Below are positions 11,974 to 63,505 of a stretch of 64,000 nt of DNA, one piece after another. This DNA comes from Bryum argenteum. Lineage: Eukaryota > Streptophyta > Bryopsida > Bryales > Bryaceae. How positions within the stretch are numbered: the first letter of the stretch is position 1; every line of letters begins with the position of its first letter. The position numbers and the translations under genes are program-made. The notes beneath the pieces were generated by a model. That model worked only from the letters and a program-made list of their open reading frames with translations, was not told the DNA's origin and made no database searches. Location: assembly GCA_037043015.1 (NCBI GenBank), contig CM073321.1, forward strand, positions 33,334,101 to 33,398,100. Direction: 5' to 3'.

Positions 11974-13734
11974 ATGGAGATCGAAGACCATGCCCAGATT
12001 CCTAAGGAAAATGAGGTATTTAAAGTGATTCAAACTTTAGAATTCTGTGGGGTGGTACATTTATAGCTTCAATTTTCTTTTCGTTCACTTACCTTCTTTA
12101 CTCGCTTGGTCATTAAAAGGCGCACATGATTTGGTCATGTGGCTCAACGAATCTGAAATGAGATTTTCATTAACACTTTTATTAACAAGATGATTTTGTG
12201 ATTCTTTCGGTATGATCTTCTCTAATGTTTTCACTTTTTGATGAGTTGAGATTCAATATTTAATTGTATAATATTTGGCAGGAATTTCAAACTCAAGACG
12301 TGTTGCCAGCAACTTCCTGTCCCATTGACTTGAACAACGCTCTTGAAAGTAAAGTACAGCATCGAACACAACACAAGGTGGATTCAATCAACGTCATCAA
12401 CAGCCTTCGAATTCAACCCTTGAAGAAGTTGCAGTTGCTTGTTCCCTTGTGTCAAATGATATCAATGGCCAAGGTGAGGCCAATTGGTGAAATGGGAATA
12501 CAGCATCTCGAGAGGGAATTTGTGAAGGGCTATCGAGACGGAGACCGCGTCATGTACATTTCTATGTACAACAACGAGGAGTTGTCATCGGATGTTACAG
12601 ACGAGGTTAAGTCTCGTTGGAGCCCACTTTGGCAATCGGCGAACCAAGCTTTCGAAGAAGAGCTTCAAGGTGATTCTGATCTACGGCAATTCTTTGGAAA
12701 GATGTTCTTCGTTTGGGAAGGTAACCATTGCCTCCATGCATGGTTAAGACATATTAACAATCATCATGGCGAGGACTCGGATTGGCACATCTCTGTGCAT
12801 TGCATTCTTCTAGATTCCCGTGGCAAAGTTGGCAACCTTCTTCATGCAATGCACGATATCAACTTGTAGGTGTGTACCCCTTTCTACCTCTTACTTTTCA
12901 TCCACACTCTTGAATGCGAGGTTTGTTTTAATACCAGTATTGCTAATTATCTTCTTTTTTGTGTAGGTCTACAGAAAATGATCACGTGAAGAGTAATCTT
13001 CTAGCAAAGCTTTTCCGCATTCGATCGTTTGGTTCGATGAAGTTGGAGGAATTCAGGGATCTCCTCACTCCGGATGAGTACCGGATTTGTTTGACTAACA
13101 AGCCATCTAATCCGAGATGGTTTTCATTGACAACAAAAATATTCATTGCGGTCCTTTACCGAGTAAGAATTCATTCAATACTTTGTTATCATTTGATCCG
13201 TAGATGTATGCATTGTCTGAATTTGTTTCTAAATTTATTTTCGTTTTACATTAGGAGATTGCCACAGCTTTGGATGACGCCGCTAGGGCATACACTGAAA
13301 AAACACCCAAGGAGGATCAAACTGCTACTGGAATTTGGGAAGCGATGACGTTGGCAGCGGATAAAATGGTCGATTCCATTAAGAATAAAGATATCACCAA
13401 GTATTTGGCCATCGCAAATCCCAAAAATGGCGACGAATTTCTTGGCGAGGTGAGACTCTTCACACTACTACAGTAGTTACATTTTTATAGTTTACTATCA
13501 GTCAATTTATCTACGTGGTTATGTGATGTTATTCATCCAGATCAATCGGCATTTTAGTGAATTTCAGAAACCTGAGATGACACTTGATAAGCTCTAGAAG
13601 ATTGTTCCCGCTAATGTGGAAGCCAAATACAAAGCGCGTTGGCTAAGGTGGTGGAACTCTTCCCTTAGTTCGCGGGTTTCGTATAGATTTCTCCCGCCAA
13701 AATTTAAGGAAGTCGACCTCAACCCATGGTTGAA
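11974..13734 (+). pseudogene. ParB-like/DNA-methyltransferase family gene, 5' half (interrupted)
   Basis: Exons 11974-12015, 12282-12865, 12967-13162, 13255-13449 and 13568-13734 join in phase. The second exon resembles a ParB/Srx-type domain: VRPIGEMGIQHLEREF, then VMYIS, FFVWEGNHCLHAW and HISVHCILLDSRG, in the place of the usual 'dGnHRl.A' signature. Later exons are helical and unrecognised, ending in WLRWWNSS. A TAG at 13595-13597 breaks the last exon. That exon is cut at codon 55 by a transposon; the same codon resumes at 25373. The paralogue at 62672 aligns along the whole ParB region and the one at 42726-41884 (minus) along the last exons. ParB-like domains bind DNA or nucleotides in bacterial partition systems and also occur N-terminal to DNA methyltransferases. 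Confidence 0.7.
13731..13734 (+). repeat. Target-site duplication TGAA, left copy
   Basis: TGAA directly before the inverted terminal repeat. The matching TGAA is at 25369-25372. Removing one copy and everything between restores an uninterrupted exon. Confidence 0.85.
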
Positions 13735-13765
13735 GGGTGAATGTACACTAAACCGGGTACAAAAT
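13735..13765 (+). repeat. Left terminal inverted repeat
   Basis: Begins GGGTGAATGTACACTAAACC, continuing GGGTACAAAA. Pairs with 25339-25368 in inverted orientation. Confidence 0.9.
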
Positions 13766-13859
13766 GGGCAACTTTAGTGAGTATATGCTGTACTACGAGG
13801 TATATGAAATTGAGGTAGTTGGGCATGTCAAGGCCTGACGCGTGGGAGTTTTAAGCATT

Positions 13860-14220
13860 AATTGCTTTGGGTGGGCCCGGGAAATCGTCGTGGTGGGGGG
13901 GAAATGCTCGGGTGGGGGGGGGGGGAAAGCTCGGCCTCGGGGGGAAGCTCGGCGTCGGGGGGAAGCTCGGTAGGGAGGCAAGGAAGATGTGTCCAGAGTG
14001 TGTTGACCTTGCTCTCGCGATGTTTTTGCAGCCATTCCCATGCTTTTGCTGCTATCTGTTTAAGCTCGAGGTACTTTAGGATTTTAGAATGAGTTATCGC
14101 TCTCGGTCTGTCGACCTTGCTTTCCGCTTACTCACCTTGCAGCCGCTTACTCGTAGTTCTTGCAGCCCTTTACTCGTAGTTTTTGCAACCGCTTACTCGT
14201 TGCCGCTATTTCTTCAAGCT
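13860..14220 (+). repeat. G-rich and GAAGCTCGG minisatellite, subterminal region
   Basis: A run of ten Gs near 13915-13924 is followed by 14-bp repeats (GGGGAAGCTCGGCGTC type, three copies). At about 14127-14195 a second short repeat occurs (CTTACTCGTAGTTCTTGCAG type). Subterminal repeats of this kind are common in large DNA transposons. No gene here. Confidence 0.6.
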
Positions 14221-14609
14221 CGAGTTTGTTGAAGGTTGAGTGTGTTGATCATTCTCTTGGTCTGAGAATAGTAACATGGTTTTGTATTGCATCGAGGGAG
14301 TCTGGCACGAGGTAGTCTGGCATGGATAGGGTTGTAGACAATATTGAGGTCAGCGCGAGAGTGTTTAGTCATTTTTCGGGCTTCTTAGACCAGACATCTC
14401 GTGGATTAGGAGGGTTTAGTGCTCCGAAGGTAGCCAAAGCTGGATGCTGCTACCTCTTTTTGTTTGTGGATTTTGAAGCGTGCATGGTGCAGGGTGCAGG
14501 GTGCAGGGTGCGGCGGTGCGGTTTTACGGCGGTGCGGCGGTGCGGTATAAGCAACGGTGTAGGGTTTGCTGAAGACTGGGTTCGGGCCTTCGGACTTTAG
14601 CTTTGCGTC

Positions 14610-16142
14610 ATGGGAAAGCGTCCCTGCAAAGCAGGAGCTGGGGAGAGTGAAGAAGAACCCGACGCTGAAGTAGCCTTACTAGATGTGGAGGATAGGATTG
14701 CTGTGTTGAGGAAAGGTAGGCCCCCTCCGCAATACAATGTGGAGGATTTCCGCGACAAGTTTGGGTTGCCTGCTGAAGGTATGAATCCTCACGTAAAGAA
14801 AGATACCGCGGTCATCAAACAAAGTGAGTTGGAGGCAGTTTATGGAGCCCAGAAAGGAAAGAGTGGGTTTTTTTTTGGGAATTGCAAGAATGTAGAGGTG
14901 AAGAATGCCATCAACAAGATTTATCCTGTTGTTTATCAGCATCCCCATGGTCCCAAGAACAAACTGATCGGCAAGGACTTCGCCATTGGGATTGTGGCCG
15001 ATGTTGTGAAGAAACTAGATGTCAGCTGGGCAGCTTTCGCGCTTCAAACAAATAGCAATCAGCGCAGTGCCTGGAAGAAAAATATAGTTACAGCTTTGCA
15101 ATCTAAGGCAGAGCTCGTAGATAAATCCTTCGAGGAGGTGGCAGCTGAGGAGGGTTTGGACGATCTACTGGAGGTAAACTTCAGTCATTCAACCTTGTGC
15201 TTTTAGTATTTACCATTTGTTTTTAGTGTGCTTATAGTGTTTGTAATTCTGCGGTTTTTTTCAGTCTTTGATCAATGTTTCATGACTTGCTGCAGTGGAT
15301 GTATGCGGTGAAGAACGAGGCTTTAGAGAGTCTAGTAGTGACAGTTGCAGGTAGGATTGGAGAAGCTAATGCCCTCATCTGCCAGAAGAAAACGGAGATT
15401 GTGGAATTGTTGGTTGTTATCCGCATGGAGCTGAAGTGCATCAAGAAGGATTTGGAGGAAGCGCTGAAGGAAAAGGAAGACATCTGCAAGAAGGTGGAGA
15501 GCATGCGCATGGCACTAGGGACGATGGGGCAGACTTGTGAAGACTGCCGTTCGAAGATTGCAGCAAATTCAAATGGAGCAGATGCAATCAAACTGCAGAT
15601 GACGTTGGAGTTTTTTAACACCACGTTGGCATTGCAACAGGCTGAATTTGAGAGCATCTCAGCTGAACAGTCCGTGAAGGTGGACAAGCATGAGAGCTTG
15701 CTGAAGAGGACGGATTTCTTGGAGGGTCAGTTAGCCTCTCTAACCTCGCAATTGAATTCCCTAAAGAGGGGTCAACCTGGATTTGCACTTCACCCTCACC
15801 CTATCACATCCTCCATTTCATTCCCTTTGGATGACCATGGTTACATAAAGATAGCAAATTGTGTGGTGTGTGACCTTTCTTTCCCATTCAGTGACATCCT
15901 TGTTTGTAGTTGTAGACACTTGTACGACCCGTGGTGTGCAATTACATGGTTTAGGACTTCTTGGAAATGTAAAGAGAAATCTTGTGAATCCATAGTGCAC
16001 CCTAATTGGTACAAAAGTTTTGGATTTGTTGAGCCCCATGCTGCCCTTCAAGAAAAGGCAGAGGAGCTCGACTGTGAGGTGCAGCGGCAACAGGTGATCT
16101 CCGAGAGGACTACAATTGCGAAGGGAAAATTCCCTGATATTG
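14610..16142 (+). CDS. Coiled-coil protein with RING-like zinc site (5' part of SET gene)
   Basis: ATG 14610; exon 14610-15173, intron, exon 15296-16142, phases matching, then an intron to 16926. Residues 1-188 are an unrecognised basic domain (NVEDFRDKFGLP, FFFGNCKNVEVKNAINKIYPVV). The second exon begins with a long coiled coil (about 15330-15770; heptad-rich, Lys/Glu/Leu). It continues into a Cys/His cluster: CVVCDLSFPF, LVCSCRHLYDPWC, WKCKEKSCE, resembling a RING or related cross-brace zinc site. No stop or shift in this part. Splicing into 16926 in phase (a Gly codon split 1+2) links it to the SET region, so it probably encodes the N-terminus of one protein. A separate upstream gene is possible. 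It lies inside the DNA transposon. Confidence 0.65.
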
Positions 16143-16925
16143 GTGAGATATCTTACCTTCTCATATTCAGTCACTCTCTTTGGGTGTATCATATACTACT
16201 GCAGATATTGTATGCTACATACTTGCATTCATTTAGTATTTAACAATCATGAGTGAAGGATAGAGTTTCCGAATAACGGCCATACAGTGTAGATTGAATT
16301 TGGATGTGTGAAGTATAAGTATTATGATAGGAAAAAGTGTGGCACTGTACCCTACATGAGTAAATGTATAGACTTTTCAATTCATATAATATTTTTTTTG
16401 CTATGCTAGAGTATTCAACGCAACAAACTTATGTATAATTGTCTAGTTAAGTATAGGTTTAGACCATAGTGTAGTATACCATATCCAATACTGGACCACT
16501 GAGTACGAGAACACTCATGTAGTATAAGCCATTGTCTAATTAAGTGTAGGTTTAGACCGTTCTTAATGTAATGTAGTACATTGTGATGTACTAAAATGGA
16601 AGAGAAGTTAGAGAACACACCTATAGTATATGTAGAGTTGTCTAGTTAAGTGCAGCTTTATACCTTACTTACTATACTATAGTACAATATGATAGTACTT
16701 GGAGTACGAGAATACACCTGGAATAAGTAAACGGACTCTCAGAAGTTGTATTCCATACTACCGTGTAGTACAATTGGGACTTCAGTGGTAAGATCGCATA
16801 CCCTGCTGAGTTGATTTTTTGACTCATGTACAAACCCGAGTATAATATTATTGCTCTTTTTAGGTGTATGCTCTTCTCGGGTTTCACTCAAGGCATGAAT
16901 ATGAGTGAGCTGAATATTTTTGCAG
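16143..16925 (+). other. AT-rich intron of the cargo gene
   Basis: GTGAGATA donor at 16143 and TTTTTGCAG acceptor ending at 16925. It contains three imperfect copies of a 100-bp-scale repeat (TTGTCTAGTTAAGTATAGGT near 16438, 16532 and 16635). No coding potential seen. Confidence 0.65.
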
Positions 16926-19377
16926 GTTCATCGCAGCCACTGCCTTCAGGGCCTGTCTCCATGTGTACAGGTGTCTCGAGTGTTGGAGAGGCTAGCCATG
17001 CAAAGAACTCACGATTGAAGCCAAGGATTGAGGAGTCTTGTGGCCGTATTGTCGAATCTTTTGATGACGACACTGGGAAGAATACGCCTGACTCCGACAA
17101 GGTGAAGGGAGATGCTCGCCAATCGCGAGGTGAACCAGATAGTGCTGTAGACGGTTTAGCGCCCCGAGCATTGCATGTTGACCTCGGATTAGGAAGTGGC
17201 AACGACGTTGCACCAGCAGTGCATTGTGAAGGCGAGGAAGATGCTGCGCCTGGCTTTTTGGAGCTCACGACGGATGTAGAAATGCCACCTCTCCCCTTGA
17301 AGATGCGGCCGATGATCTGGACGGAGTTGCAGATCCATGTGATGGAGGTGATACCGCTATAAGTAACCAGGACAACATCGTCCTCAAGTTGAGGGCAGAG
17401 ATTGCAGCATTGAGGGCGCAGAGTCCCTCTAGTTCATCTATCGAGAGGGAGAGCAAATCTCCAACCGCGCTCGAGTCTATCTTGAAGGGAGTGGTGAGGA
17501 AGGTACTGCCGTTCCAGGTATGTCAACCTGATAACAAAGGACCTGTAAAGACAAGGACTTTGGCTGCATTAGCTCCACTTCCAAAGTCTCCTGTTGTCAC
17601 AACTATTCCAGCTGGGGCCCCAACTGATGCAGCTCCGGGCCCCAACTAGTGCAACTGGGGACCCCAACTAGTGCAGCTGGGGCCCCAACTAGTGCAGCTG
17701 GGGCCCCAACTAGTGCAGCTGGGGCCCCAACTAGTGCAGCTGGGGCCCCAACTAGTGCAGCTGGGGCCCCAATTGATGCAGCTCCGGGCCCCAACTATTC
17801 CAGTTGGGGCCCCAACTAGTGCAACTGGGGACCCCAACTATTCCAGCTGGGGCCCCAACTAGTGCAGCTGGGGGCCCCAACTACTCCAGCTGGGGCCCCA
17901 ACTAGTGCAAATGTTGGGGCCCCAATCGATGCAAATGGGGTCCCAATCGATGCAAATGGGGCCCCAACTATACCAAATGGGGCCCCAAATCGATGCAAAC
18001 AAGGGGCCCCAACTATTCCAGTTGGGGCCCCAACTAGTGCAACTGGGGACCCCAACTATTCCAGCTGGGGCCCCAACTAGTGGAGCTGGGGGCCCCAATT
18101 TGTGCAGCTGGGGGATTTTTGAGAGTGGTGATAGGTGTACGGTGAAGTGTGGGCGGGGCTGTGGGACAAAGAGGAGGCGCTGTCCTTGTGCTACTGTTCA
18201 AGGGGGACTACCTCCATACGAGCAAATGGGCTACTTCACCCACACTACATTGAGACGGTACTACCTTAACTTTGACCTTTGCATGTGTATTAAATTGGAA
18301 TGTTGTCTAAAATGTTTGTTGTCATTGACTAGGCAACGAGAGAAAAGGCTGGAGAAGTGGAGGACATCTACGAATACTGCGATGAACAAGATTGTGTGGC
18401 GTTGGTGAAAGGAATGTGCAGCGGCCATATATCTCGTACATTTTTGAAGGAATGTAGCAATAACTGTGGATGTCACAGGAACTGCACAAACCGGATTGTA
18501 CAACGAGCTTTAAGAAGAAGACTACAGGTTAGTTTCTAGAGTAGTTGAAATTCAGCGTTGTTTTAAGCTTACATTATAAAACATTTGCATGGTTTCATTT
18601 GCAAATGCTTTATAATGTAAATGATTTTTATCTTGAATTGTATTCTGGTGTTTCAGATCTTTTGGACAAACTCAACGAAAGAGTGGGGTATACGCACTTT
18701 GGAGGACCTTCCGCAGGGAGCCTTTGTGTTTGAATATGTTGGACAGATAGTGAGTAACCAAGAGATGTCAACCCGGCGACATCACGAGAAGTTTGTGATG
18801 GACCTCGATGCGGATTGGAGGAATGAACAGAAGCTGACTGATGATGAGGCTTTGTGTCTGGATGCTACAAAGTGTGGGAACGTGTCTTGTTACCTGAACC
18901 ACAGGTAAGTTATGTGGTTTTAACATTTTCTTTGAATTTGTTGTATGAACATGGTGTAGGAACATGGAGTGAAAATTGTGTATGAACATGTTGTGTGTGC
19001 TCCTTAGGTGTTTGGATGCAAACCTTGTTGATATTCCGGTCAAGATTGATTCTATGGAATCACGATACTATCATGTGAGTACAATCAATAATTTATTTAG
19101 TATGCTTTCAATTGTTGTTTACAATTGTGATGATTTCCAACGCCTACCGGTTTGGATATGGGAACAGGTTGCATTTTTCACAAAACATGAAGTGAAGGTG
19201 GGCGAGGAGCTTACTTGGGATTACGGCATTAGTTTTGAAGATGCGGACAACTCAGCCGTGTGGTTCAGATGTTGCTGCAACAGCCCGTACTGCAGGGACA
19301 TCGGTGCCGGTCAGCTAAGCCCCAGAGCAGAAGAATTTATCGTAGCCTGTCGAAAAACCTTAATGACTTTTACTTAG
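16926..19377 (+). pseudogene. SUVR-type SET-domain lysine methyltransferase region
   Basis: Exons 16926-17517, a repeat-rich stretch to 18112, about 18113-18257, 18333-18527, 18657-18904, 19008-19074 and 19168-19377 (TAG). The order is a Cys-rich pre-SET (CTVKCGRGCGTKRRRCPC, then FLKECSNNCGCHRNC), SET proper (WGIRTLEDLPQGAFVFEYVGQ; NHRCLDANLVDIPV; ELTWDYGI) and post-SET (CCCNSPYCRD). Spacing fits plant SUVR1/2/4 H3K9 methyltransferases, nuclear enzymes using S-adenosylmethionine. The catalytic WDYG tyrosine and NH..C..AN pocket are present, but the usual Arg before the aromatic of 'RF.NH' is Cys. The frame must shift near 17270, within the GGGGCCCC repeat, and at the 18257/18333 junction. Those are decay, assembly errors or undetected introns. 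The 3' SET exons are intact. Confidence 0.75.
17610..18115 (+). repeat. 21-bp GGGGCCCC minisatellite inside the SET gene
   Basis: About two dozen imperfect units of GCAGCTGGGGCCCCAACTAGT (21 bp), with variants in which GCAGCT becomes GCAAAT or TCCAGC. In one frame it codes for AGAPTSA heptads; in another, QLGPQLV. Single-base indels make units switch frame. Each unit has an 8-bp GGGGCCCC palindrome. It lies between the disordered region and the pre-SET cysteines. Confidence 0.9.
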
Positions 19378-19424
19378 TGTATCATACTCGATATGTTACC
19401 TCAATGACTTATACCTTACTAGTG

Positions 19425-19478
19425 CATTATACTACTAGTACTGTACAGTACTGTACTGTAAGTACTAGTAGTATAATG
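19425..19478. repeat. Perfect 18-bp inverted repeat just after the SET stop codon
   Basis: Arms 19425-19442 (CATTATACTACTAGTACT) and 19461-19478 are exact reverse complements around an 18-nt loop that is itself nearly self-complementary (GTACAGTACTGTAC). It could act in 3'-end formation of the convergent genes; that is a guess. Confidence 0.85.
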
Positions 19479-19514
19479 TACTACTAGTAAATAGTAATGT
19501 AGTTACTACGAACT

Positions 19515-19800
19515 GTGAGGAGCCGGTTTGGTTCCCTGTGTTATTTCAATAACTTAGAAGTAGGTAATAATACTACTAGTACTGTCCAGTTACTAGTGAG
19601 GAGCCCGTTTGGTTCCCTGAGTTACCTCAATAACTTATACGTAGGAAATAATTCTCCTAGTACTGTCTACTTACGGATATCGGAGCCGGTTTGGTTCCAT
19701 GTGTTACCTCAATGAATTATACCTCTGAAATAATACTACTAGTCCTGTACTAGCACTTTCTAGTTACTACGAACTGTGAGAAGCTGGTTTGGTTCCCTGT
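19515..19800 (+). repeat. ~83-bp tandem repeat, four units
   Basis: The block GAGCCGGTTTGGTTCCCTGT recurs at about 19517, 19600, 19681 and 19787, with shared CCTCAATAACTTATA and ATACTACTAGTACTGT segments between. Spacing is about 83, 81 and 106 bp. It fills the gap between the two convergent transposon genes. Confidence 0.8.
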
Positions 19801-20485
19801 GTGTATTGTGCTTCCTATGAGTATGTCCATGTGTGTTTTCTTTGTTAGCTGAATGTCATAAATTTTATACAAGCTGCATATATAATGTCCAAACCAGTCG
19901 AGATCTCTGTTTGAATCGTAGAGTGAGAAGGGCAAATGGCAAAAGATTTTAATCGGGGTGAGAGTTCGGGGTATTGAACCCGACGGGGTAAAAGTGATTT
20001 CTCCCATATTGTTGGAAAAGTTACCTCACAGGGTAAATAAATATAGAAGTTACCCCTGTTCCTTTCGTCAGCAAGACACCGATTCGTCCTTCAGATCGGG
20101 GACGAGAGAAATCATAAGGGGAAAGTACCTTGCCCTTGATGTGGGGGGGGGACCGGTTCTTGCATGACACAATTGAACACCCAAACTGGAGCTAGTCCAT
20201 GTTTGGTATTTTTTTTTTTTTTTTTTTTACTAACTGATTTTCTACCACTCCCCCATGTATGCACGTATCATCATATCATGCCACAAGTATATAAAGTACT
20301 CGGTAAGTATACAGGGCATGGAGAGTATATAAAGTATACTGATACACTCAAAGTATATTACAGTATTACATTCAAAGTATATTACAGAATTTATTCAGAC
20401 CCAAGAATGTAACCACATAGTATTATATACTCTATCAAGAAGACAAAAATTCACCAAATGTTGTTGTTATTAATTTTATCATACA
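19801..20485. other. Non-coding spacer between convergent genes
   Basis: No gene. It has a T-run near 20209-20228 and short GTATATAAAGTAT repeats at about 20288-20400. It is probably the shared 3' region of the SET gene and the transposase. Confidence 0.5.
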
Positions 20486-23400
20486 TCAAAACCCCTCAAG
20501 GCTGGTCCTAATGACTTCGATAGTTTCACTACTCAGCTGATAAACAAGATCATCCCCTTTCACTCTATGAAGAGCGGATACCATTGTGAACTTGCAGGCA
20601 AGAACTAAATCCGCATCAATGTAAGCAAGTTGGGAATTACTCAAATACACATATGATTGCTCACTATTCCCCCATTTTTGATAGTAGGTACGTGCAATAA
20701 CGTGTTGTCCACGCTCGAACTCTCCACCCCACACGCAGTTGAAGCTCTCTTGCACAAGTTGTTTTTCTTTTTGGCATTGCAGAATGTAAAAGTCAACACC
20801 TTCCACATTGCCTCTGATCGTAGGAACAGCAAAATTTTCACCAATTTTCACCAAACCTCCAAGCGATTCATCATCGGATACATAATCCCACGGCTCTTCA
20901 TCAGCAGAGTTGCTTCCTTCTCCTGGACCAGGTAGCATTTGGTCCCTCACAAAAGTCACATTAGTGGGGGCTAGTTTCACAACCCTCCAAGACTTAACAT
21001 GTGATGTATTCTCACAAGATTGCCACTCACTATCTATACATGGCGCACAATAGCAAGCAAGCTCTCTCACCATCAGCAATGTCGGGTCCGCTGGTGAGAC
21101 TGCGTGTATGGAATGAAAATTCCTTGAACCTGGGATTGTGTCACATCCATGTACATGAGTCCTCTCCACATCATTTGGCTTGATGTTGTAAAAGTGTCTA
21201 TACGACACTATTCTCTTGGATTGAAGAGAACTCAACATAAGGCCTGACATGGACTCCTGTAGAAAATCCACCACATGCTTGGCGTCCTGCAACTTTCTTG
21301 ACGGATTGTGAAGTTGCTCTGTCCAAAGAGCCCGCTTCACTACAGCTCCCGCCCCATCCCATTCCCCCTTTCCATGACCTGTCCCAAAGAAATTCCAAGT
21401 AATCTCACACTTGCCCCTTAGTCCAGGACAACGACTTACAAAATACATTGATCTAGCCCCTTTAAACTGCCCTGCACACCCATCACTCCACACCCAATGG
21501 CGGGAGGGGTTAACACCTTCAGATTTCATCCAGGCCCAATGAAGAAGCAAACAATGCTGGACAAAGAAGGTGTCATGAGTGCGGTCATCAGAAACATAAA
21601 AATGAGTGTCTTTCCTTATTTTACCTGTTGTCATATCCATGCGGTATGTGATATGAACTAGTATCGTTACCTGTGAAGATTGCCAATTCATAGATTGTAT
21701 TTCATTCTGAATCTCAAAAGTATAATTTTCTGCAAAGTCTATGTGAGACAGAACCACATCGTGAGGCAATGTGTCCATACTTTTCCGACATTGCACATCT
21801 TGCCACCAAGCAACAAAATTATGAGTCACAAATTTCTGCAATCTTGGCAACAAATATTGTATGAAATCATAGCAAGAAGTTTCCTTAAATACTTCCTGAA
21901 TTTTCTTCCTCGGCTCTCCATTGTCATTGAACCCGACTAACTCGTTCTCAAAACACCTCCATTTCAACGTCCACGTCGAATTCATCCTTTCCAGGGGACA
22001 GATTGGGAGTTTATCTGCACCTTAGTTTGCACACAACCCCATGAGACATTCGAGCTTGTGAAATTCGGCAGTCTCAGCCTTAGAGCAGACAATTTGCTCC
22101 CACAACATTGTGACTCCTTTGAAACTATATTCTTTCGCACAGCATGTCGGTCCAGATGCATCAATGCAAAGTGGACAGTCGCAAACGCAAGAAAGAGAGG
22201 GGTGTAGTCCCTTGCTGGCATTTCGAATGTTGTTGTTCATCCCTTCCCGCAACAAGTCCATCTCTACGTGATATTTGCAACAGCAAACATTGCGGTCTTT
22301 GCACCTCTTCACAAAAAACGGCTTCAGTCTCTCGAATGTGCTTAATCCTATGGACTGGTCTTCATGCGCCATACGGAACCGAGAATGGAAAGAAGCCTGC
22401 CAGAATCAATAATTGGTGCATGTCCAGTGAAGGTAAGTGAATGACCGCAACACAATCAGTCTATACTTGAAACTCGTAAGCATAGAAGGCATCGTAAGTC
22501 AATGAATATACTTTTGAGGATATGTGGGACACTATTATATTCATACTTGAATACTATACCCACATACAAAGTTTACGAAAGAGGGACTTTGAGAAGTATA
22601 TAATAGTTCACTATATACAAACAGCAGTACATGCATGGTACTCTATATAGTAAATACTGACACTAAATATACAATGATATGTATGTATGATATACATAAT
22701 GTATAATTGAGATTCAGACATATACTAGTAAGTATATATTAGAATAGACGAAGAAGGTGGGGTCTAGCATGTAAACCATCCAGTACTCCGGTGCACCTTA
22801 CAGTACATTATATCCTTTAGAAGGTACTCTGTTATGGACTCCTACACCGAATGGGTACACTATTTTGGACTCCTACACCGAATGCATACATTGTTTTGGA
22901 CTCCTACACCGAATGGATACTACTACCAGTACACATTGTGTACAAACGGTTCAACAACACACCATCAAAAGTCTACAAGATTAAGGCATGTAATGAGGAG
23001 TACAATTGAAGTTAAAAACGTACCAGGCTTTTCAAGAGGAAGTGTGTTGGGTAATGCTCATAAGTCTTCGGCCCCAACCTCTTCCATGTTACGTCCTTCT
23101 TGTTGGGACTTACACGAGTTTCTGAAGCCGACCACATACTAACTAGAGCTTTGCTGCTGTTCGAGATGCCTTTTCGCTTTCAACGTTCAGCCAGTGTGAA
23201 AATTGAAGAACCATTCGATTCAAGATTTTGGCGCCTTTGAATTGCATTGGAGATGTTTGTTACCTTTGTGCCGAGGACCCTTGATAGTGCTCGAACCCCA
23301 GGAACATCTCTGCAAACCGCGGCTTCTAGCAGCGTTGTCTTCCTCACCAACTTCTCTTTCGAAGTCGGAATCTTTAGTGATTCCAATTCCGTCCTGTAAC

Positions 23401-23810
23401 TCTGGATGAACGAATGCTGAGCTCTGGCTTCGGAGGGACGCGAGTAGTAGTCCGGGAGATGGGGCATCAACGCATTGTTACGAAGCATTGACTCTAGGAC
23501 GGCTTTCCTTAACTCAGGGCCCCGACTCACACCCTGAAACTCGTCGATGATGAACTGGACTATTTTGTTTGAGACTCTGGACGTCTCTCTTCGCAGAATT
23601 TCACGTGATGGTGCTCCAGGCTCATCAGTTCTAGGGAGCATTCTCGATGCTTCTTCAACAGCACGTTTCCGCGCCCGACATTGTTGCTGCACGCTCTCTT
23701 GCAAGAACAGCATCAGGTCGCAGATGCTCTTCTAAAACTGCTTCTGCTCTCTGAGAAGGTCCACGACGCCTCACTCCAAGGCGCCGTTGTTGGTTTTGGG
23801 AATTCCCCAT
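20486..23810 (-). pseudogene. Transposase-like protein of the 11.6-kb transposon
   Basis: Minus strand. ATG 23810; first exon to about 23025 (GTACGT donor), intron, last exon 22396-20486. It contains ETRVSPNKKDV, a Cys/His cluster (NVCCCKYH, SCVCDCPLC), then HIDFAENYTF, YVSDDRTHD, WSDGCAGQFKG and FFGTGHGKGEWDG. The last four blocks suggest an RNase-H-like D-D-E/K core: SHIDFAENY and WSDG as first and second acidic positions. This protein type is widespread in invertebrate and algal genomes as uncharacterised, transposon-like genes. Defects: frameshifts near 23670 and 23155 and an in-frame TAA at 22022-22024. The last 499 codons are open. Its place inside matched inverted ends makes it the likely mobility gene. 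The catalytic reading is inference. Confidence 0.65.
22833..22925 (+). repeat. ~32-bp tandem repeat in the transposase intron
   Basis: Three copies of TTGGACTCCTACACCGAATG plus about 10 variable bases. They lie in the intron of the minus-strand transposase gene, in otherwise AT-rich sequence (22440-22830). Confidence 0.8.
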
Positions 23811-23999
23811 GTCGTTCACTACGTAGTTACCACAATACAGAGTCAGATAAGCTAATCGATGAAAAAAAATGAATGCAAGGTTACAGGCGTCCGACACGAT
23901 TACAAGACACACCTACAAATGTGAAATGCTAACTGCAGACCAAAATCCGAATGCAACGTCGGTCACTTTACCGTCTGATTTGCGCTAGAAGATTTCGCG

Positions 24000-24170
24000 C
24001 TACGGGACTCGGGCGGGGACGTGATGCGGGGCTCCTGCTGAAACTCGCACCGGGGCTCTTTCCTGAAACTCGCACCGAGACTCTTGCTGAAACTTGCACC
24101 GGGGCTCCTGCTGTAACTCGCACCGGGGCTCTTGCTGAAACTCGCACAAGGGCTCGTATCGGCTCGAGAA
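24000..24170 (+). repeat. 24-bp minisatellite
   Basis: About six units of CTGAAACTCGCACCGGGGCT plus 4 bases. The period is a multiple of 3, so frames stay open on both strands, but no gene context supports coding. It lies upstream of the transposase start. Confidence 0.75.
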
Positions 24171-25338
24171 CTCCTAAAACCGCTGATAGCATTCACAAAT
24201 TCTCTCTTCGCCCTCCAGATTCTCACTGTGCATCCTGAACCTTCTCTAGCGCTTCATAAACTCTCCAAGAATCAAAGCGCACAACATATTCACAACATTT
24301 TGACTTTCGGGCTTTGCTTTTTTGAGTTTTTGGTGAAACAGCTTCAAAAAACACAACAACAGAAGAAACTAACCAGAAAGGGCGATTCCGCACAACACCA
24401 AACCCTAAACCTCCCAAATTCAATGGGATTCCATTCATCTGACAAACGTTCACAGAAAATTTTCCCATGTTTAGAACGAAATGGACTTTGAATTCAAGTC
24501 TAAGCTTTGAAGATAGCCTTCTAGCGCCGCCCTACAGCAGTAGCAATTACAAGAGTCCGAGGAAGGACGATAAAGCAGGCACTTCAGATCCGTTTTGAGG
24601 GAGAAGAAGGCGGCAGTTACCCACTCTTGTCCAATGATATTAACGAGCTTCATGCAACAACGGAGCGTCATCATTGCGAAGGTTACTTTTGCAGGTCGTG
24701 CGCTGTCAGAGAGCCGCCGATTTCAGCAGAAAGGCGAGACACGTGGCGATGTGTCAGGCCCCACTAGTGTCACAGAGTACATTCAGGTACTTCAGAGTAT
24801 ATAACATACCATAAAGTTCTCCCTAGCTGCATTTTTAGATCCGAGGCAATATCTGCTAACGAAATGGAATTTATTCTCTGCTATAGCTAGCCCACATACA
24901 TTTTGGTCACATTAAACAATAACTACAAAAAAAACCAAAAAAAAAACAATTCCACTTAGTTTTTCTTTGTACTGAACTAAACAAGCTAAGTCTTTCAATA
25001 GATGACATTTTGGACTATGGCTTGCATATTTCCATATGGAATGTGCAAGACCAATGTGTGTAAATTATACAATCCATAAGTTACGCCTAGATTGTACAAA
25101 TTCTCTTGCCCAACAAAGTATATTTGTGCCAAATACAAAACTGTGACAAGTATATGTCAGTATATAAATATACTCTTTATGTTCATTTGAAGCACAATCT
25201 ATTAATAAACACTTCAAACATTGGTAGTAGGTTGAGTATATATCCATATTATGGTACCAAAAACCTCAACAATTTCCTATAATTCAACTGACATACGATT
25301 CAATACCACACACCTCTGAAACTGTCTCTGTGACTACA
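24171..25338. other. Right subterminal region of the transposon
   Basis: No gene recognised. GC content falls from 24800 on. The 24171-24800 part could hold a promoter or untranslated first exon for the minus-strand transposase; nothing specific was seen. Confidence 0.5.
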
Positions 25339-25368
25339 TTTTTGTACCGGTTTAGTGTACATTCACCC
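25339..25368 (-). repeat. Right terminal inverted repeat
   Basis: Ends ...GGTTTAGTGTACATTCACCC, the reverse complement of the left end, followed by TGAA (25369-25372). Confidence 0.9.
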
Positions 25369-27989
25369 TGAACAAGGCTGCATTTTGGGCGGGGGTATAG
25401 TCTTTCAAAACCATTACTGTGATTGATATCTTCTAGCTTTTTGTATTTTTTCATCTCCTTGAACACTCTAAGTAATTGAATTGCATCTTCTAGTTGGAAG
25501 AAGCTGTTATACGTGAGTTCGAGGACATATGCAAGGCGGAGAAGCTCACCATCAATTGGAAGGCATCCCCAGACGTTCAGCGACCAGATGCTTATGTCGA
25601 AAGTTGGCGTATCCTTTTATTGGAGAAGGCCTTTCCAACGTTTCTTCGTCCCCGGCCTGAGAGGGTTTTTGATACAAAGTGCAAATTCAGCAAATTTCCG
25701 GGAACGGCTGAGGTTGTCAAGAGGGTTACGTACCGGTATGATTACCAAGACTACCTCTTCTGCATTTTGAACCTATTCGTCTTCCTAATTCTGTTACCTT
25801 TTTATGACTATAACAATCTGTCTTTGTAATTGTTCAGGTACTTCAAGAGGGAGCTAATTCCGAAAGGAGCCATTGATGTTCAGGAGCTCCCAAAGTACTT
25901 TGCGGCATGGATTCAGAAAGGTACAGACGAGTGTGTCTACACTGCTGTTCAGCTGAAAATGTTCAAACCACCACATTTAGAAGCCGGGTGCTGGTACCTC
26001 GATTGTAATCGTGGATTTGTCATTGATTCTGAGGCGGAAGTGAAGTCTATTCATGATGGCGGAGTGCAGTTACTGGTAGGGGTCAAAGAATCTGTGCAAG
26101 TTATAGAGGACGACGACAAATAGCAAGATCAGTCATCTGCTCCACCGCCAAAGTCTAGGAGAGGGCGTCGCTTGCGCGCTGCTTCAGAAGCGGCTCATCC
26201 TACGCAACCTCAAGCATCGGAACAAACCCAGGCGGAATCCACCGCGCATGGGCCGGGGCAAGGCACAGAGACGCAATTTCAAATCCTAAGTTTACCTTGT
26301 CCCTCTTCTTCCATCGTGCCTGCCTTGGTCAACGCATTAGAGTCTTCCAAAGGTCTCATTCAGCAGAGGAAGGCACACCAAATTCCCACGACTACCCCTT
26401 CACCCATGATTCCAAATTCGGCCGAGATTTTTATCTCCAACAACTTAGTGGATTCATTGATGACTTCGCATTTGAAGAACTACCAACTCAACGGTGGTGA
26501 TCCAAGATGGGTTGAGTTTCAAGACTTCATTCGCAAGGTACGATACAGAACTTTGACCGATCTTGTGTGTTGGAGTTATTTGAATATTCTAAAGTATTAC
26601 TTGGCTTACTGCTTTCTTTCAGGTTGGAAAAGGCCGCCAAATACAAGTTTTGGTACAGTGCATGAATGAGGAGGATTCTAGGATCGACTTGATCATTGCC
26701 GACATCCCTGAGAATCTACCCGTGCCAACAATTCCTACTCCGTCTTCAATAGTTCCTTCTTGGAACTCATGGGAAGTGGGGTATGTGGAGTCCATCTTTA
26801 AATTCGCAAGGATGTATTTGCAGAATAATGGCGCTCTCGTCCTTTTCCACTGCGATGATCGAGACCTCTTTACGGAGGTATTCGATTTGGCTGATAGGTA
26901 CAACTTTGTTATGGCCAAAGACTGGTGGGGCATCAACGAACTAAGTTTGGCTTCTCCAAGGGATCCTAACTCAATAGTATTGTTCCCCTTAACTATTCTT
27001 GATAACGTTTTTATAGTTTGTAGTGATGTTTTTTTTCCATGCTTCCTTACATCCTTTAGGTGATTGCAGTCTATTCGGTTCTGGATTCACCTCTTCGTTT
27101 GTGGTGGCGACGTGACATCCAAATTCTCCTTCCATACTGAGAAATGCGAAACGTCCAATGATTTCGTTAATCTCACAAAATCTGATGCAATCTTCAACTT
27201 TACGAAGACGGAGACTCAATTAATGAATGGAAATGTTCCATGGAGAGGACCAAGAGAGAAGGACCCTTTGTTTCTGCGGATACTCATTGAGCAGCTTACC
27301 AAGCCTGGCAATATAGTCCTCGACTGGAAGGCAGGAACAGGTAAGCATTGACTGATTAGGTTCGTATTTTGTATCATCTTGCATTCCGTATTGAGTCTCA
27401 TTTCCCTTTCTAATTTCATTTTTCTTGATTACAAGGGCTACCATTAAGGCTTGCCAGCTTATTGGTCGTCATGTATTGGCGTTTGAAGACGACGCTCTTA
27501 TCTTCAACGCACTGGTAGCTCCATATGTTGCGGGAAAACCACTCTTCGTGCCTCCTTCTCGCCATTCCAGACCTCCAGCAACCGATGAACCGCGCACCAA
27601 GAAGCCAAGGCGCAACCGCTTCGATTGTAAGTATGTCTTACTCTAAATTTCATAATTTCTGTAAGCTACCGTCGTTCTTTATATGCATCTGTCCCTACTG
27701 TTATTAACCAGTATTTGGTTGATATTGCAGTGTAGTTGCATCAACACAGCTTCATCTATCAAGACCCCAACCCATTCTATCGTGGCGTGTGCACTTGAGT
27801 CCGATTCAAACATATGTTCTTCGAGAATATGCTGAAGCAGAAGCGTTTCAGTTTGGCGTCGTTGGATATGTTCCTAGTCGAGCCGCTACTTGTGATCCTA
27901 GGGCCCTTGTGTTTATGGATACAGAGGCTGTAGTAGGAGATTCTGAGTCCTCAAGATCAGAGAGTAGTAGCGATTATAGCATCTCTTGA
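25369..27989 (+). pseudogene. ParB-like/DNA-methyltransferase family gene, 3' half (beta-class MTase-like)
   Basis: Continues the exon split at 13734: 25373-25394, then 25494-25735, 25838-26537, 26633-26976, 27060-27340, 27436-27626, 27731-27989 (TGA). The C-terminal half has beta-class (N4/N6) DNA methyltransferase layout. Motif IV-like RIDLIIADIPEN comes first, then ALVLFHCDDRDLF. Later comes REKDPLFLRILIEQLTKPG, motif I NIVLDWKAGTG, and ACQLIGRHVLAFEDD, the SAM pocket. The expected DPP(Y/F/W) is D-I-P-E, so catalysis is doubtful. Basic linker RRGRRLRAA at about 26158 suggests nuclear targeting. Defects: TAG at 26121-26123, a frame change near 27100, and an out-of-phase 27340/27436 junction. 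The family's bacterial relatives methylate adenine or cytosine N4. Confidence 0.7.
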
Positions 27990-37023: not shown

Positions 37024-37317
37024 TCAATTTGTTTCACTGGGTGAAACATGACTTGAAGACCTACGACAACGAGGACAAGTCCAATCCCCAGAGGATAAAC
37101 TAGCAAGCAGTGGCATCAAGCAAGGCATATGCCAACCACGTTGGCATTGGTCACATAACAGCATCATGGCCGCTCCCTTCTTCTCCCCACACACAAAACA
37201 TGGAAGGCCTTTAGGCACGACGGCCAATTCCGGATGAATTGAACTATCAATAGGTAAATGACAAGAAGCACAGTTCTTGGAATGCTCCCGATACTCCCTA
37301 CCGTCCTTGCCTTCCAA
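37024..37317 (-). pseudogene. PHD finger at the C-terminus of the gypsy polyprotein
   Basis: Contains CFVCGEKKG, LLCDQCQRGWHMPC and WTCPRC, the C4-H-C3 ligand order of a PHD finger, about residues 40-84 of this open frame. An additional pair NCASCHLP lies before it. PHD fingers read histone H3 tails by methylation state, so here it could steer integration or act on chromatin, the job done by a chromodomain in other gypsy elements. It is reached from the integrase through a frame change near 37330. Terminates at TGA/TAA-type stop before 37024. Confidence 0.8.
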
Positions 37318-37329
37318 TAAAAGAGGCCA

Positions 37330-38495
37330 CTGGGCAATCTATCCTTCATACAAAGAATAGTCCGCCCGGCCTTGACATCCAACGTCGTAGGCGCCTCACG
37401 TTGCAAATAAACATTATCCCCCCTGGAAAAACGTCGCAGCTGAGGTCGATAGGCACCAATCCGAATACAAGCGTACCGTAGTGTATCACGATGCTCAGCA
37501 ATAGATAAGTTCTCCATGGCCATTGGCATGGCCCGTTTGAAGAACTCTGCTCGGTCACGTAAACATTGAGCCCACATGTCAGGATTATCCAAATCTACAA
37601 CTGGAGCCAACTCCTCTCGTACGGAACTAGGAAGAATAGGCTCCCGCCCATACAACAACCGATACGGATTGAAGGCAGCCAAAGAAGTTTGCCTACTGAA
37701 CCGGTATCCAATGGCAATCCACGGTATAATCAAATCCCAGTCACGCTGGCCACCCTGAAGTAATCCGTACTTCCGTAGGTCACGCTTGACCATCTGAACA
37801 ACACGCTCCACCAAACCGTCTGCTTCCGGATGATCCCGAGAAGTAGTACGGTGGTCAATCAAAGCCTTGGTACACAAAGCCTCAAAAGCACCAAGAAACT
37901 CACGCCCCTCGTCTGTCAAAACCTCACCTGGGGCTCCAAAACGAGCCAATACCTCGTCAAGGAATGCCATAGCTGCCAACTTAGATGAGTTCTGCGGTAG
38001 TGCCACAAGCTCAATCCACTTGCTAAAATGCTCCACCATCACGAACACATATTTGGCTCCACGTGGGGTTACAATAAGCAACCCGGCAAAATCCAAGGAC
38101 CAACGGTAGCCCAATTCCAAAATAGGCAAAGGCTCCAACTGCGGTGATAAGGTGTTGAAGCTGGATCTAATCCGATCACAGAATTGACACCGTGAAACTT
38201 ACGTGGCAACTTGCTGATACATGCCGATCCACCAATACTGGCTGCGCAACATCGAATGAGTCCGTCGCACACCAAAATGCCCAAGGTCCTTGTGTACCTG
38301 CCGCACCAACGAAGCCTTCTGATCTAGCCTGGGCACTATGCGCCTAGTCCCATCCGGCCACACACGAAATAGAAGGCCGTTTTCCCAACGAAACCTCGCT
38401 ATCCTATGTCCAACTCTATCACGTTCCATTGCCGAAAGAGCAGGTGGAAGCATCCCATGTTGTAGCTTGTGCAAGACCGGAATGTCTTCCCACAC
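37330..38495 (-). pseudogene. Integrase of the gypsy element
   Basis: Zinc-binding part at 38495-38199 (VRQVHKDLGHFGVRRTH, QYWWIGM, and downstream CQFC). Core from 38138: WSLDFAG (first Asp), VLTDEGREF (second Asp) and DHPEADGLVERVV (region of the Glu). Then comes a C-terminal SH3-like FSRGDNVYLQRE. A TAA at about 38196-38198 falls where related elements usually have an aromatic residue, and the frame changes near 37330 before the PHD finger. Integrase inserts the cDNA into the genome; this copy is dead. Confidence 0.85.
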
Positions 38496-38513
38496 ATCAC
38501 TAACAATGTGGGC

Positions 38514-39089
38514 TCAGTCCGGTTCCTCATTGGTTGGCATGTCAGACAACGTAGATGCGGAGCGAGACATCAAAGTGAGATAGGCTGCTCCATGCCACAC
38601 CGGAATTGCCTCCCTATCGCAATCCCCATGCCACCTGGCACCAGTCCAATCCTCCTTTGATGGACTTGGGTTGCGAGATAGCCCATCCGCATCCAAGTTC
38701 GTGATGCCGGTCCGATGTACAACCTCAAATTCATACTCCTGAAACAATAAAGCCCACCTGGCGAGCTTTCTAGTAAGCTTGTCAGACTCCATAAGCCACT
38801 TCAAAGGCTGGTGGTCGGTCACCAAGGTAAAACGTTGGCCATACAAGTAGGGCCTAAAATGTGCTATAGCCCATACCCCTGCCAAAGCCTCTCCCTCATA
38901 AGATGAATAGTTAGACTCTACATTCTTGTTGCATCTAGAAGCAAAAGTAACAACATACTCCCGTCCTTCCTCATCTTTCTTAGTCAAAACCGCTCCCAAT
39001 CCTACAGTACTCCAATCAGTGTGCAACTGGAAGGGTCGTGTAGCATCCGGACGTCGCAAAACTGGCGCTGAATCGAGCTTCAGCTTCAA
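38514..39089 (-). pseudogene. RNase H domain of the gypsy element
   Basis: FQLHTDWSTVGLGAVL, then NYSSYEGEALAGVWA, LVTDHQPLKWL and the tail GITNLDADGLSRNP. The order and acidic positions (D, E, D, D) fit gypsy RNase H, which removes RNA from the cDNA hybrid. It ends with a TGA at 38514-38516, after which the same frame continues into the integrase (AHIVSDVWED). Confidence 0.85.
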
Positions 39090-39224
39090 AGTAACAAACG
39101 CCTGCTCTTGCTCTCGTCCCCATGTCCATGGTTAATCCTTCCCTGTAAGTATAGTCAACGGCTTAGCAATCAAGCTAAAGTTCTTCACAAACCGGCGATA
39201 GTAATTTGCCAAGCCAAGAAAAGC

Positions 39225-40100
39225 TCAAAGCCGTGACACGTCGGTTGGGGCCGGAATCTTCTGTAGAGCATCCACCTTGGCCTGTTGCACGCCAAGACCT
39301 CCCAGAACAATCATATGCCCCAAGTATGGTAACTGATCGTGGAAGAACTTGCACTTGCCATGATGCAAGCGCAATCCCCACTGCCGTAACCTCTCAAACA
39401 CGGCCTGTAAGTGCCTCACATGCTCTTGTGGGCTACTACTAAAGATGATAACATCATCAATGTAGCATCGGGCAAATGGTAAACTGGTCAACACCCGATC
39501 CATCACTCTCTGAAACTCTGCACGTGCGTTCTTGAGGCCAAATGGGAGAAACTTCCAATGGTAAAGTTGATCTCTCCCATCCTGATCAACTCCCCAGAAT
39601 GCAGTCTTCACTCGGTCCTCCACCATCAACGATAACTGATGATAACCGGACCTCACATCTAGAGCACTAAATACTCTAGAATGCCCACTGCATCAAACAA
39701 CTCCTCTAGCGTGGGCATAGGATACCGATCCGATTTAGTCTTGCGATTAACCGGTCGGTAATCCCAACACATGTGCTTCTGTGTCCAGTTGTCAATATAT
39801 CCTTCTTCGATGGCATAACAGTGGCACGAACGTACTCGCCATTGGAGAGCTCAATCAAGCTGGCAGCGAACAACTCCTGACACCGAGTCTGAACACCAAC
39901 TTTCTCTGAAAGACTAAGCTTGTACGGTTGCCGGAAGATGGGGTGATCATCCCCCAACTGAATATGAATAGGTTTGCCTCTATAACCCTCCAAATCCTGA
40001 AGGCTAAAGGCAAATCAACTTTGATACGAACATATGAACGCCCGCACCTTTTGTGCCTCGGCACCGGTGAGATGTGGCCCCAACTCCAAAGACCAATCAT
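39225..40100 (-). pseudogene. Reverse transcriptase of the gypsy element
   Basis: From about 40100 a lead-in (GYRGKPIHIQLGDDHPIF, QPYKLSLSEKV, ELSNGEY), then from 39656 SGYHQLSL, TAFWGV, FLPFGLKNARAEFQRVMD and the catalytic CYIDDVIIF, followed by LGHMIVLGGLGV. Stops and shifts near 39700 and 39840 split it. Typical RT palm with YIDD box, so once functional. Confidence 0.88.
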
Positions 40101-62671: not shown

Positions 62672-63505
62672 GATTCGTTAAAGCTACATGGAGTTGTTCG
62701 CGAAGAGGAATCTGATGCTGACAGCGACTTGTGTGCTTTGAGAGATCATGTCATGGCTGTAGTAGAGTCTCGTCGTTTAGTGGTAGCATTGTCCTTGGTT
62801 CCCGAAACTTCGCCTCCTGCCTCCCTTGTCCGTCACACTTCACGTATTGACGTTGATCGGGTTGCACAAGCGGTTAATATGCGAATTAAAAAGAATGAGG
62901 CCAAAGCTAGACGTATCAAAGGGAAAGCAGTAGCTAGAGTTGCACCCAGACATTCTCCGCGACTTTAGAACAAAGATCCAGATTGGAGTGCTAACGAGAT
63001 GAGAATGATCCACAAAAGCGATTCGATTGCGATTATAAACAGGTTTCGGTACAAACCTGTGAAAAAGTCTCGCATGATTATTCCACTTTATCGTCTTGTT
63101 TGCTATCCTAATGTGCGACCTATATCTGAACAAGACATCAGAAAACTGGAGAATGAGTTCAACGAAGGCTATTGCGAGAGCGACCGGGTCATGTACGTTT
63201 CCCCCTTCGATAGGAAAGGGAGAGAAAAATTGGTAGATTCCAAAGATGCTGTGTGGACGAATCCTCTATGGAAATCAGATAATGAAGAGTTTGAGAAGAC
63301 GCTGCAGTCTGATCTGGATCTTCAACACCTCAGTGACAAGTATTTTTACGTGTACGAAAGTAACCACCGTGTTATGGCGTGGATGTGTCATATTGAGAGG
63401 TACCATAAGATGGAACCTTCGTGGTACATCTCCGTGGATTGTATCGTACTTGATGCACGAGGAGAGAGCAACCTCCTGCTTGACGCTATGAACGACATAA
63501 ATTAG
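62672..63505 (+). pseudogene. ParB-like/DNA-methyltransferase family gene, N-terminal part
   Basis: After an acceptor at 62671 the frame has an acidic start (REEESDADSDL), a basic stretch (IKKNEAKARRIKGKAVARV), a TAG at 62966-62968, then in the same frame the ParB-like block: NVRPISEQDIRKLENEF, VMYVSPFDR, YFYVYESNHRVMAW, WYISVDCIVLDARGES, LLDAMNDIN, ending TAG 63503-63505. It aligns throughout with 12330-12865. The NH.V motif after Y-x-S is the counterpart of the ParB 'GNHR' element, here with NHR intact. A GTAAGT donor at 63506 overlaps the stop codon; splicing would still give TAG with the next acceptor. Confidence 0.68.

Follow-up and report, generated by a model that had tools for sequence, protein, structure and literature searches.

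We analysed a 64,000-nucleotide stretch of the genome of the moss Bryum argenteum (the window; contig CM073321.1 of assembly GCA_037043015.1, positions 33,334,101 to 33,398,100), in which a DNA transposon of 11,634 bp sits inside an exon. The insert is one non-functional copy of a ~12-kb transposon family with terminal inverted repeats (TIRs), making target-site duplications (TSDs) of 4 bp. Next to its transposase gene it carries a gene with a SET domain, which is the more unusual part of the element and was not noticed in an earlier note on this DNA. We give a probability of about 60% to the following reading, which draws on sequence comparisons. The element would be a Sola-like transposon with a DDD transposase (three catalytic aspartates), it would have captured a SUVR4-type gene long ago, and the SET protein would act on the chromatin of the element.

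The insert occupies positions 13735-25368 of the window, with borders exact to the base. Both ends have the same perfect inverted repeat of 22 bp (GGGTGAATGTACACTAAACCGG), whose first 14 bases occur within the window only at these two places. TGAA stands on either side of the insert (13731-13734 and 25369-25372), and the bases just beyond this duplication differ between the two flanks. When the flanks were joined without one TGAA, an open exon was restored (13598-13734 plus about 25373-25394), followed by GTATAG. The inverted ends, the TGAA flanks and the restored exon bear out the claim of the earlier note that this is a DNA transposon with both borders fixed.

The genome searched comprised 258.8 Mb in 25 contigs. 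The joined exon of 54 residues gave at least 150 matches (the best 150 of 721 candidates were scored). Seven places among the matches listed had a full-length, stop-free match at 93% identity, whereas the window's own locus matched at residues 1-46 only. The uninterrupted form therefore exists elsewhere in the genome, as the earlier note had claimed for relatives of this exon. A paralogue in the window (42422-42221), which had been put forward as the uninterrupted exon, is indeed intact at the site, but has one stop in the homologous frame; it is a degraded relative. The exon is one of a family with very many copies, so the insertion does not disrupt a unique gene. This family, with its intact splice sites, may itself be repetitive, mobile or recently amplified. 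Two other open reading frames (ORFs) of the window (12264-12869 and 62969-63505) are related to each other by eye, have no Pfam match and may represent exons that lie further upstream in genes of this family.

The 20-base end of the insert had 56 genome matches with at most two mismatches (24 of them exact), versus none for the reversed control. For pairing, 64 ends were collected, eight of them added from another listing. Each plus-strand end was joined to the first opposite end that followed it within 130 kb, provided that no other plus-strand end lay in between; this limit was chosen after a pair spanning 125 kb had already been seen. The result was 23 pairs, with 14 plus-strand and four minus-strand ends left unpaired. 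The 4-bp flanks were identical in 20 of the 23 pairs, and shuffling of the right flanks gave a mean of 1.03 and a maximum of 5. Three pairs had no matching flanks. One of them, C4:6813397, would match with a 4-base shift of the end, a post hoc change that was not counted. The earlier note had named a lack of other copies, or other copies without 4-bp duplications, as evidence against a transposon; the search returned further copies with the same ends, and with the duplications.

Eleven of the pairs spanned 10.8-13.6 kb. The other 12 spanned 1.7 to 125 kb and are, judging from their spans, probably deletions or nested insertions. Eight pairs of 28 to 125 kb were taken as nested insertions, given the usual copy length of ~12 kb. 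Three pairs with ends 44-125 kb apart (C2:31510903-31635613, C4:15964989-16013320 and C6:11722098-11765924) had matching 4-bp duplications and would, by span, be nested insertions or very large elements. At C7:6718291 and C7:6866720, two ends 148 kb apart had the same 20-base flank, the pattern that a segmental duplication including an inserted element would leave.

A sister lineage (lineage B, the insert's own being lineage A) has ~67% transposase identity to the insert and ends in GGGTAGAAGCACACTAAGGGTGTACAAA. Its 17-base core, searched with a single free position and up to one mismatch, gave 158 matches versus four in the control. Ten lineage B pairs, picked by hand from among the matches listed, included seven with exact 4-bp duplications, two with three of four bases and one non-matching. 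Both lineages have the end layout GGGT-N5-ACACTAA in common. Short derivatives of ~0.8 kb are present in both, which suggests that they were mobilised in trans. In four of these derivatives inspected by eye, the duplications matched in two (in one assuming a mutated end), mismatched in one and were unclear in one.

The main transposase frame (22405-20486) is open for 638 aa in the relatives L010, L011 and L013. The window copy has a single in-frame stop at 22022-22024 and presumably can no longer supply transposase. A probable second exon (23731-23180) resembles, by eye, the N-terminus of a protein from the moss Ceratodon purpureus (P0020). Further relatives of the transposase came from Klebsormidium nitens, an alga (P0094), and from Cryptomeria japonica, a conifer (P0105). 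The genome scan, in which the best 84 of 508 candidates were scored, gave at least 102 matches in at least 79 merged loci, with identities running from 100% down to 37%. With the Ceratodon transposase as query (best 58 of 695 candidates scored), at least 13 loci of another lineage were added. Two Ceratodon-like copies with near-equal scores, C8:14219180-14221321 and C5:4043013-4045154, had open frames of 762 aa and no SET exon nearby among the matches listed; they are possibly young relatives without a SET gene.

Three aspartates, D222, D307 and D349 (L011 numbering), were invariant in all 50 aligned relatives, within the motifs IDFAENY, SDGC..QFK and HGKG..DGAGA. We propose them as a putative catalytic DDD triad, and no more than propose, because other acidic positions were conserved nearly as well (E225 and E234 in 49 of 50; D272, D273 and D277 in 48 of 50). 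The ratio of non-synonymous to synonymous substitution rates (dN/dS) was 0.13-0.17 for L013 against the window copy, L010 and L011 (0.17 for the window copy). Between the 67% and 61% identity lineages it was 0.09, with dS near-saturated, and against lineage B dS was saturated. Near-identical copies, with few changes between them, gave 0.4 to 1.7. When the transposase was compared with the profiles of Pfam-A, NCBIfam and PDB, there was no credible match. DUF6597, the sole Pfam family matched by more than one relative, was hit by two of the 50 (best E = 2.4e-4) and rejected as not credible. LRRC37AB_C (E = 0.0073) and CAMSAP_CKK (E = 0.0054), each matched by a single relative, were set aside. 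At the sensitivity used, none of 91 prokaryotic and none of 46 viral pattern matches was confirmed as a relative.

The transposon is most likely a member of the Sola superfamily. Sola elements are described as having a DDD transposase, 4-bp TSDs, TIRs from 11 bp and a length of 2-9 kb, with some above 15 kb, and as present in the moss Physcomitrella (PMC10741241). TSDs of 4 bp are likewise given for Sola2 (PMC3627910), with an AT-rich form (AWWT) for one Sola2 group. The element agrees in its 4-bp TSDs (exact in 20 of 23 pairs of lineage A and 7 of 10 of lineage B), in its TIRs (22 bp and perfect, versus 11 bp or more in Sola), and in size range and occurrence in mosses. Its three invariant aspartates, next to nearly invariant other acidic positions, would agree as a putative DDD triad. 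It differs in that its TSDs are not strictly AT-rich, and in its SET gene, of which the Sola descriptions in PMC10741241 and PMC3627910 make no mention in the parts consulted. The statement of the earlier note that the transposon fits no superfamily is thus probably wrong, the published Sola features (features were compared, not sequences) being all compatible. "Undescribed" holds only in the sense that no credible Pfam-A or NCBIfam transposase model was matched.

Alternatively, the transposase could define a superfamily distinct from Sola. The lack of a credible profile match in Pfam-A, NCBIfam or PDB, the lack of a prokaryotic or viral relative at the sensitivity used and the GGGT ends would agree with this. 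We consider it unlikely: the 4-bp TSD, the short TIRs, the size and the moss occurrence all fit Sola (PMC10741241, PMC3627910), as would the three invariant aspartates, and a missing Pfam model says little.

Other groups were tried and rejected. One was Lanisha (Repbase Reports 2020), a DNA transposon lineage considered because its authors work on mosses. It is described as EnSpm-like and placed in the CMCT clade, whose ends are mostly CA..TG and whose TSDs measure 2-5 bp; CMCT transposases have C(2)C and H(3-4)H motifs between the second and last catalytic residues (PMC12730594). A 4-bp TSD taken alone is compatible with the CMCT clade (2-5 bp). The ends here are GGGT..ACCC, not CA..TG, and L011 has no CxxC between D307 and D349; an invariant CxxC stands at 452-455, with no H(3-4)H pair after it among columns conserved to at least 90%. 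A Harbinger-type element (HarbingerS) would have a 3-bp TSD (0-3 bp in relatives) versus 4 bp here, and no Pfam transposase was matched. Mutator/MuDR elements have TSDs of 7-12 bp, again versus 4 bp here.

The inferred exons of the SET gene encode the second half of the pre-SET cysteine cluster, the full SET domain and the post-SET cysteine group. The SET domain is whole (PF00856, positions 2-105 of 105, E = 3.8e-18), and the window copy has NHxC, ELTWDY and the post-SET cysteines. Its relatives include writers of methylation on lysine 9 of histone H3 (H3K9). The best matches were plant proteins named SUVR4 or SUVR4-like (E = 7.5e-68, ~45% identity; best 120 of 234). Unnamed Sphagnum and Ceratodon proteins with pre-SET, SET and WIYLD domains were also among these matches, and the SUVR4 label for them is our own. 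Against PDB, the spliced product was led by the H3K9 enzymes EHMT1 and EHMT2 (EHMT1, 3fpd, E = 3.7e-37). WIYLD (PF10440) was not found in the element ORFs scanned, which covered some but not all of the small ones; it was found in a Ceratodon relative (P0138). Just upstream of the SET exons, at window positions 17650-18080, there are tandem coding repeats of GPQLVQL/GAPT type, where copies differ.

Over the second and third SET exons (105 codons), the window copy and a copy on C10 differed with dN 0.135 and dS 1.10 (dN/dS 0.12), and two other copies gave 0.09 and 0.10 against the C10 copy. By these ratios the SET codons look to be under constraint across two element sublineages. In a 28-row tree, unrooted and midpoint-rooted for drawing only, four element SETs and the short unnamed proteins P0121-P0123 were split from the sampled SUVR4 proteins by a 100/100 branch of length 0.8.

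With the Ceratodon P0138 as query (best 72 of 435 candidates scored), one host-like SUVR4 locus of at least 70% identity was among the matches listed, C2:7292416-7294997. Identity there was 71-79% over three matches, one of which contains a single TAG; for the remaining matches listed it was 35-60%. From its sequence, this locus looks like the SUVR4 gene of the host. SET-related loci numbered at least 150 in the union of two lists, this locus included (for the SET exon 18657..18904, the best 150 of 211 candidates were scored). These counts set at least 64 transposase-linked SET loci (at least 150 related) against one host-like SUVR4 locus.

A SET exon was found within 12 kb of 64 of the 79 merged transposase loci, and all 64 pairs were convergent, the SET exon being downstream of the transposase and on the other strand. 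When loci were placed uniformly at random on these contigs, a control that ignores the clustering of repeats, the mean was 1.1 links and the maximum 4. The gap between the two genes had a median of 1.4 kb and was below 3 kb in 61 of 64 cases. The SET-linked transposases ranged from 100% to 43% identity to that of the window. Over the 64 pairs, transposase and SET identities to the window were correlated (Spearman 0.80), as expected for joint descent.

Two further ORFs lie on the plus strand before the SET gene (Table 1). The first was 93% identical in two copies and 50-68%, in pieces, in the C10 copy; it is possibly an N-terminal exon of the plus-strand gene or genes. The second, of 323 aa, contains a piece matching the RING-H2-like PF13639 with E = 0.0027, which is below Pfam's cut-off. 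It had at least 133 genome matches in 118 merged loci (best 124 of 293 candidates scored). A SET exon was within 12 kb of 81 of the 118 loci, versus 1.9 for random placement (maximum 6). Since 80 of these 81 were upstream on the same strand, the ORF would be either a conserved module in its own right, the third of the element, or the first part of the SET gene.

Table 1 Features of the insert and of the exon that it interrupts, in window positions.
Feature	Position	Strand	Evidence
Interrupted exon, left part	13598..13734	+	Flank joining; genome matches of joined exon
Target-site duplication, left (TGAA)	13731..13734	.	Direct reading; 4-bp duplication exact in 20/23 lineage pairs
Left terminal inverted repeat, 22 bp, perfect	13735..13756	+	56 genome matches of 20-base end vs 0 in control
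ORF (201 aa), upstream of coiled-coil ORF	14601..15206	+	In three other copies examined; no Pfam match
ORF (323 aa), coiled-coil-like, with weak RING-H2-like Cys/His cluster	15272..16243	+	Lies before SET at many loci
Inferred exon, C-terminal half of pre-SET cysteine cluster	18333..18527	+	Splice sites by eye; resembles SUVR4 pre-SET (by eye); no Pfam match
Inferred exon, N-terminal part of SET domain	18657..18904	+	PF00856; at least 150 related genome matches
Inferred exon, NHRC(L)DAN core of SET domain	19008..19074	+	Splice sites by eye; dN/dS of exons 2+3
Inferred exon with ELTWDYG motif, post-SET CCCNSPYC and the stop codon	19168..19377	+	Splice sites by eye; 3fpd match
Transposase main exon, three invariant aspartates	20486..22405	-	638-codon frame in open relatives; one in-frame stop here
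Probable N-terminal transposase exon, helix-turn-helix-like region (by eye)	23180..23731	-	In three other copies examined, 81-96%
Right terminal inverted repeat, 22 bp, perfect	25347..25368	-	Direct reading; genome matches of end
Target-site duplication, right (TGAA)	25369..25372	.	Direct reading
Interrupted exon, right part to GT donor	25373..25394	+	Flank joining; genome matches of joined exon

Elsewhere in the window, ORFs at 37164-39692 resemble, by eye, parts of the integrase and reverse transcriptase of a gypsy-type retrotransposon.

In the reading that we prefer, the element would move by DDD cut-and-paste from its GGGT...ACACTAA ends, with a 4-bp stagger. The SET gene would derive from a SUVR4-type gene of a plant, taken up before the lineages that bear SET split, or earlier and followed by losses. 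It would have been retained for the ability of its product to methylate H3K9 on the chromatin of the element itself. The likeliest effect would be interference with host silencing, by conversion of mono- and dimethylated H3K9 (H3K9me1/2) to the trimethylated form (H3K9me3). The latter would not feed the H3K9me2-CMT3 loop of plants, and would in this way weaken it. That the SET protein counters silencing is the least certain step, which we hold tentatively and at somewhat less than even odds. From published work, there is feedback between H3K9me2 and DNA methylation, Arabidopsis SUVR4 acts on H3K9me1, and ubiquitin, via WIYLD, aids its conversion to H3K9me3, H3K9me2 being assigned to the ubiquitin reaction elsewhere in the same review (PMC7218100). 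In Arabidopsis seeds, H3K9me3 is described as a permissive mark (a 2026 paper, PMC13017857).

The lack of a WIYLD domain in the ORFs scanned, together with the RING-like ORF upstream, suggests, by way of speculation, that the link to ubiquitin was exchanged. In a fuller scenario, one clade would have captured a SUVR4-type gene, swapped WIYLD for a RING-H2-like module encoded by the element, would now rewrite H3K9 methylation on its own copies with the pair, evading silencing, and would have multiplied such SET genes in this genome; as a whole we find this doubtful.

The SET protein could instead add repressive H3K9 methylation to the element's own copies, causing less damage to the host and keeping the copy number moderate. 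Such self-limitation would agree with a SET domain closest to H3K9 writers, with the role of H3K9 methylation in repeat silencing (PMC7218100) and with the persistence of the element in many diverged lineages. But a gene whose only effect is to lower the activity of its own element is hard to keep by selection across such divergence, and the SET codons look constrained; moreover, the closest described transposon-borne chromatin enzymes, the fungal TET/JBP proteins, are taken as escape devices (PMC12730594). We therefore regard self-limitation as an unlikely explanation.

Several observations weigh against the reading of a Sola-like transposon with an old SUVR4-type capture and a SET protein acting on its own chromatin. 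The Sola placement comes from features rather than sequence homology. In the unrooted tree the element SETs are not seen to fall within moss SUVR4, and no plant source is indicated. The linkage control disregards the clustering of repeats, and up to 86 of the 150 SET loci had no transposase match within 12 kb among the matches listed. These loci may reflect truncation, divergence, dispersed pieces or other host SET genes. In the N-motif of the SET domain the first glycine is replaced (KEWG or KQWG versus KGWG in SUVR4).

The replaced glycine would suit a weakly catalytic SET protein that acts as a decoy: by occupying H3K9me1 or the partners of silencing, it would have a dominant-negative effect on the SUVR/SUVH pathway of the host. 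The lack of WIYLD in the ORFs scanned and the in vitro inactivity of Arabidopsis SUVR1 and SUVR2 (PMC7218100) point the same way. However, the window copy has the NHxC and ELTWDY motifs as well as the post-SET cysteines, and this region looks to be under constraint, so that we judge a decoy improbable.

Signs of decay and loss also weigh against the preferred reading. Among three other copies, the last SET exon differed in length by 4 bases in one and had a stop in another, and one had extra DNA between its SET exons. Close pairs gave dN/dS values of 0.09 to 1.7, on few changes. Among the matches listed, 15 of the 79 transposase loci and the 13 loci found only with the Ceratodon query had no SET within 12 kb (with the latter added, 64 of 92 transposase loci carry SET). 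The SET gene may therefore not be needed for transposition. It could even be a passenger, caught once and carried without benefit, the low dN/dS reflecting selection in a few master copies, as the decayed exons and the 15 SET-less loci would allow. A dN/dS of 0.12 at a dS of ~1.1 between two sublineages, the same position and orientation in all 64 linked loci and the joint divergence with the transposase speak against this, and we consider a mere passenger very improbable. A retained SET protein acting on the element's own chromatin remains our preferred reading.

Transposons that bring chromatin enzymes with them testify to an arms race over silencing. Veiseth is said to have reported in 2011 that a plant writer of the same family as the element's SET protein acts on transposon chromatin. 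With SET-bearing lineages standing beside a lineage without detected SET, the moss offers a natural comparison within one genome. The question whether a transposon-borne H3K9 methyltransferase helps the element or restrains it becomes testable. Transposon copies may also inflate the number of SET genes counted in bryophyte genomes.

SET-bearing DNA transposons are known from oomycetes. A limited literature search, with few subscription papers and no Repbase, gave no report of a SET gene in a plant DNA transposon. The known cases are HarbingerS and a SET-bearing MuDR of Phytophthora (Repbase Reports 2014), DNA transposons with a captured SET gene (PMC12730594). They share with the moss element the captured SET histone methyltransferase gene, and differ in superfamily (TSDs of 3 bp and of 7-12 bp) and in host kingdom. 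Compared with SUVR4, the element's SET protein has the same pre-SET/SET/post-SET layout and core motifs at ~45% identity. It differs in the WIYLD domain, not found in the scanned element ORFs, in the RING-like ORF upstream and in its separate branch (100/100, length 0.8). The fungal transposons bearing TET/JBP genes are spread over several superfamilies and carry a DNA dioxygenase rather than a histone methyltransferase. They resemble the moss element in having captured a chromatin- or DNA-modifying enzyme and, in some families, in a conserved gene order, and are taken as escape devices (PMC12730594).

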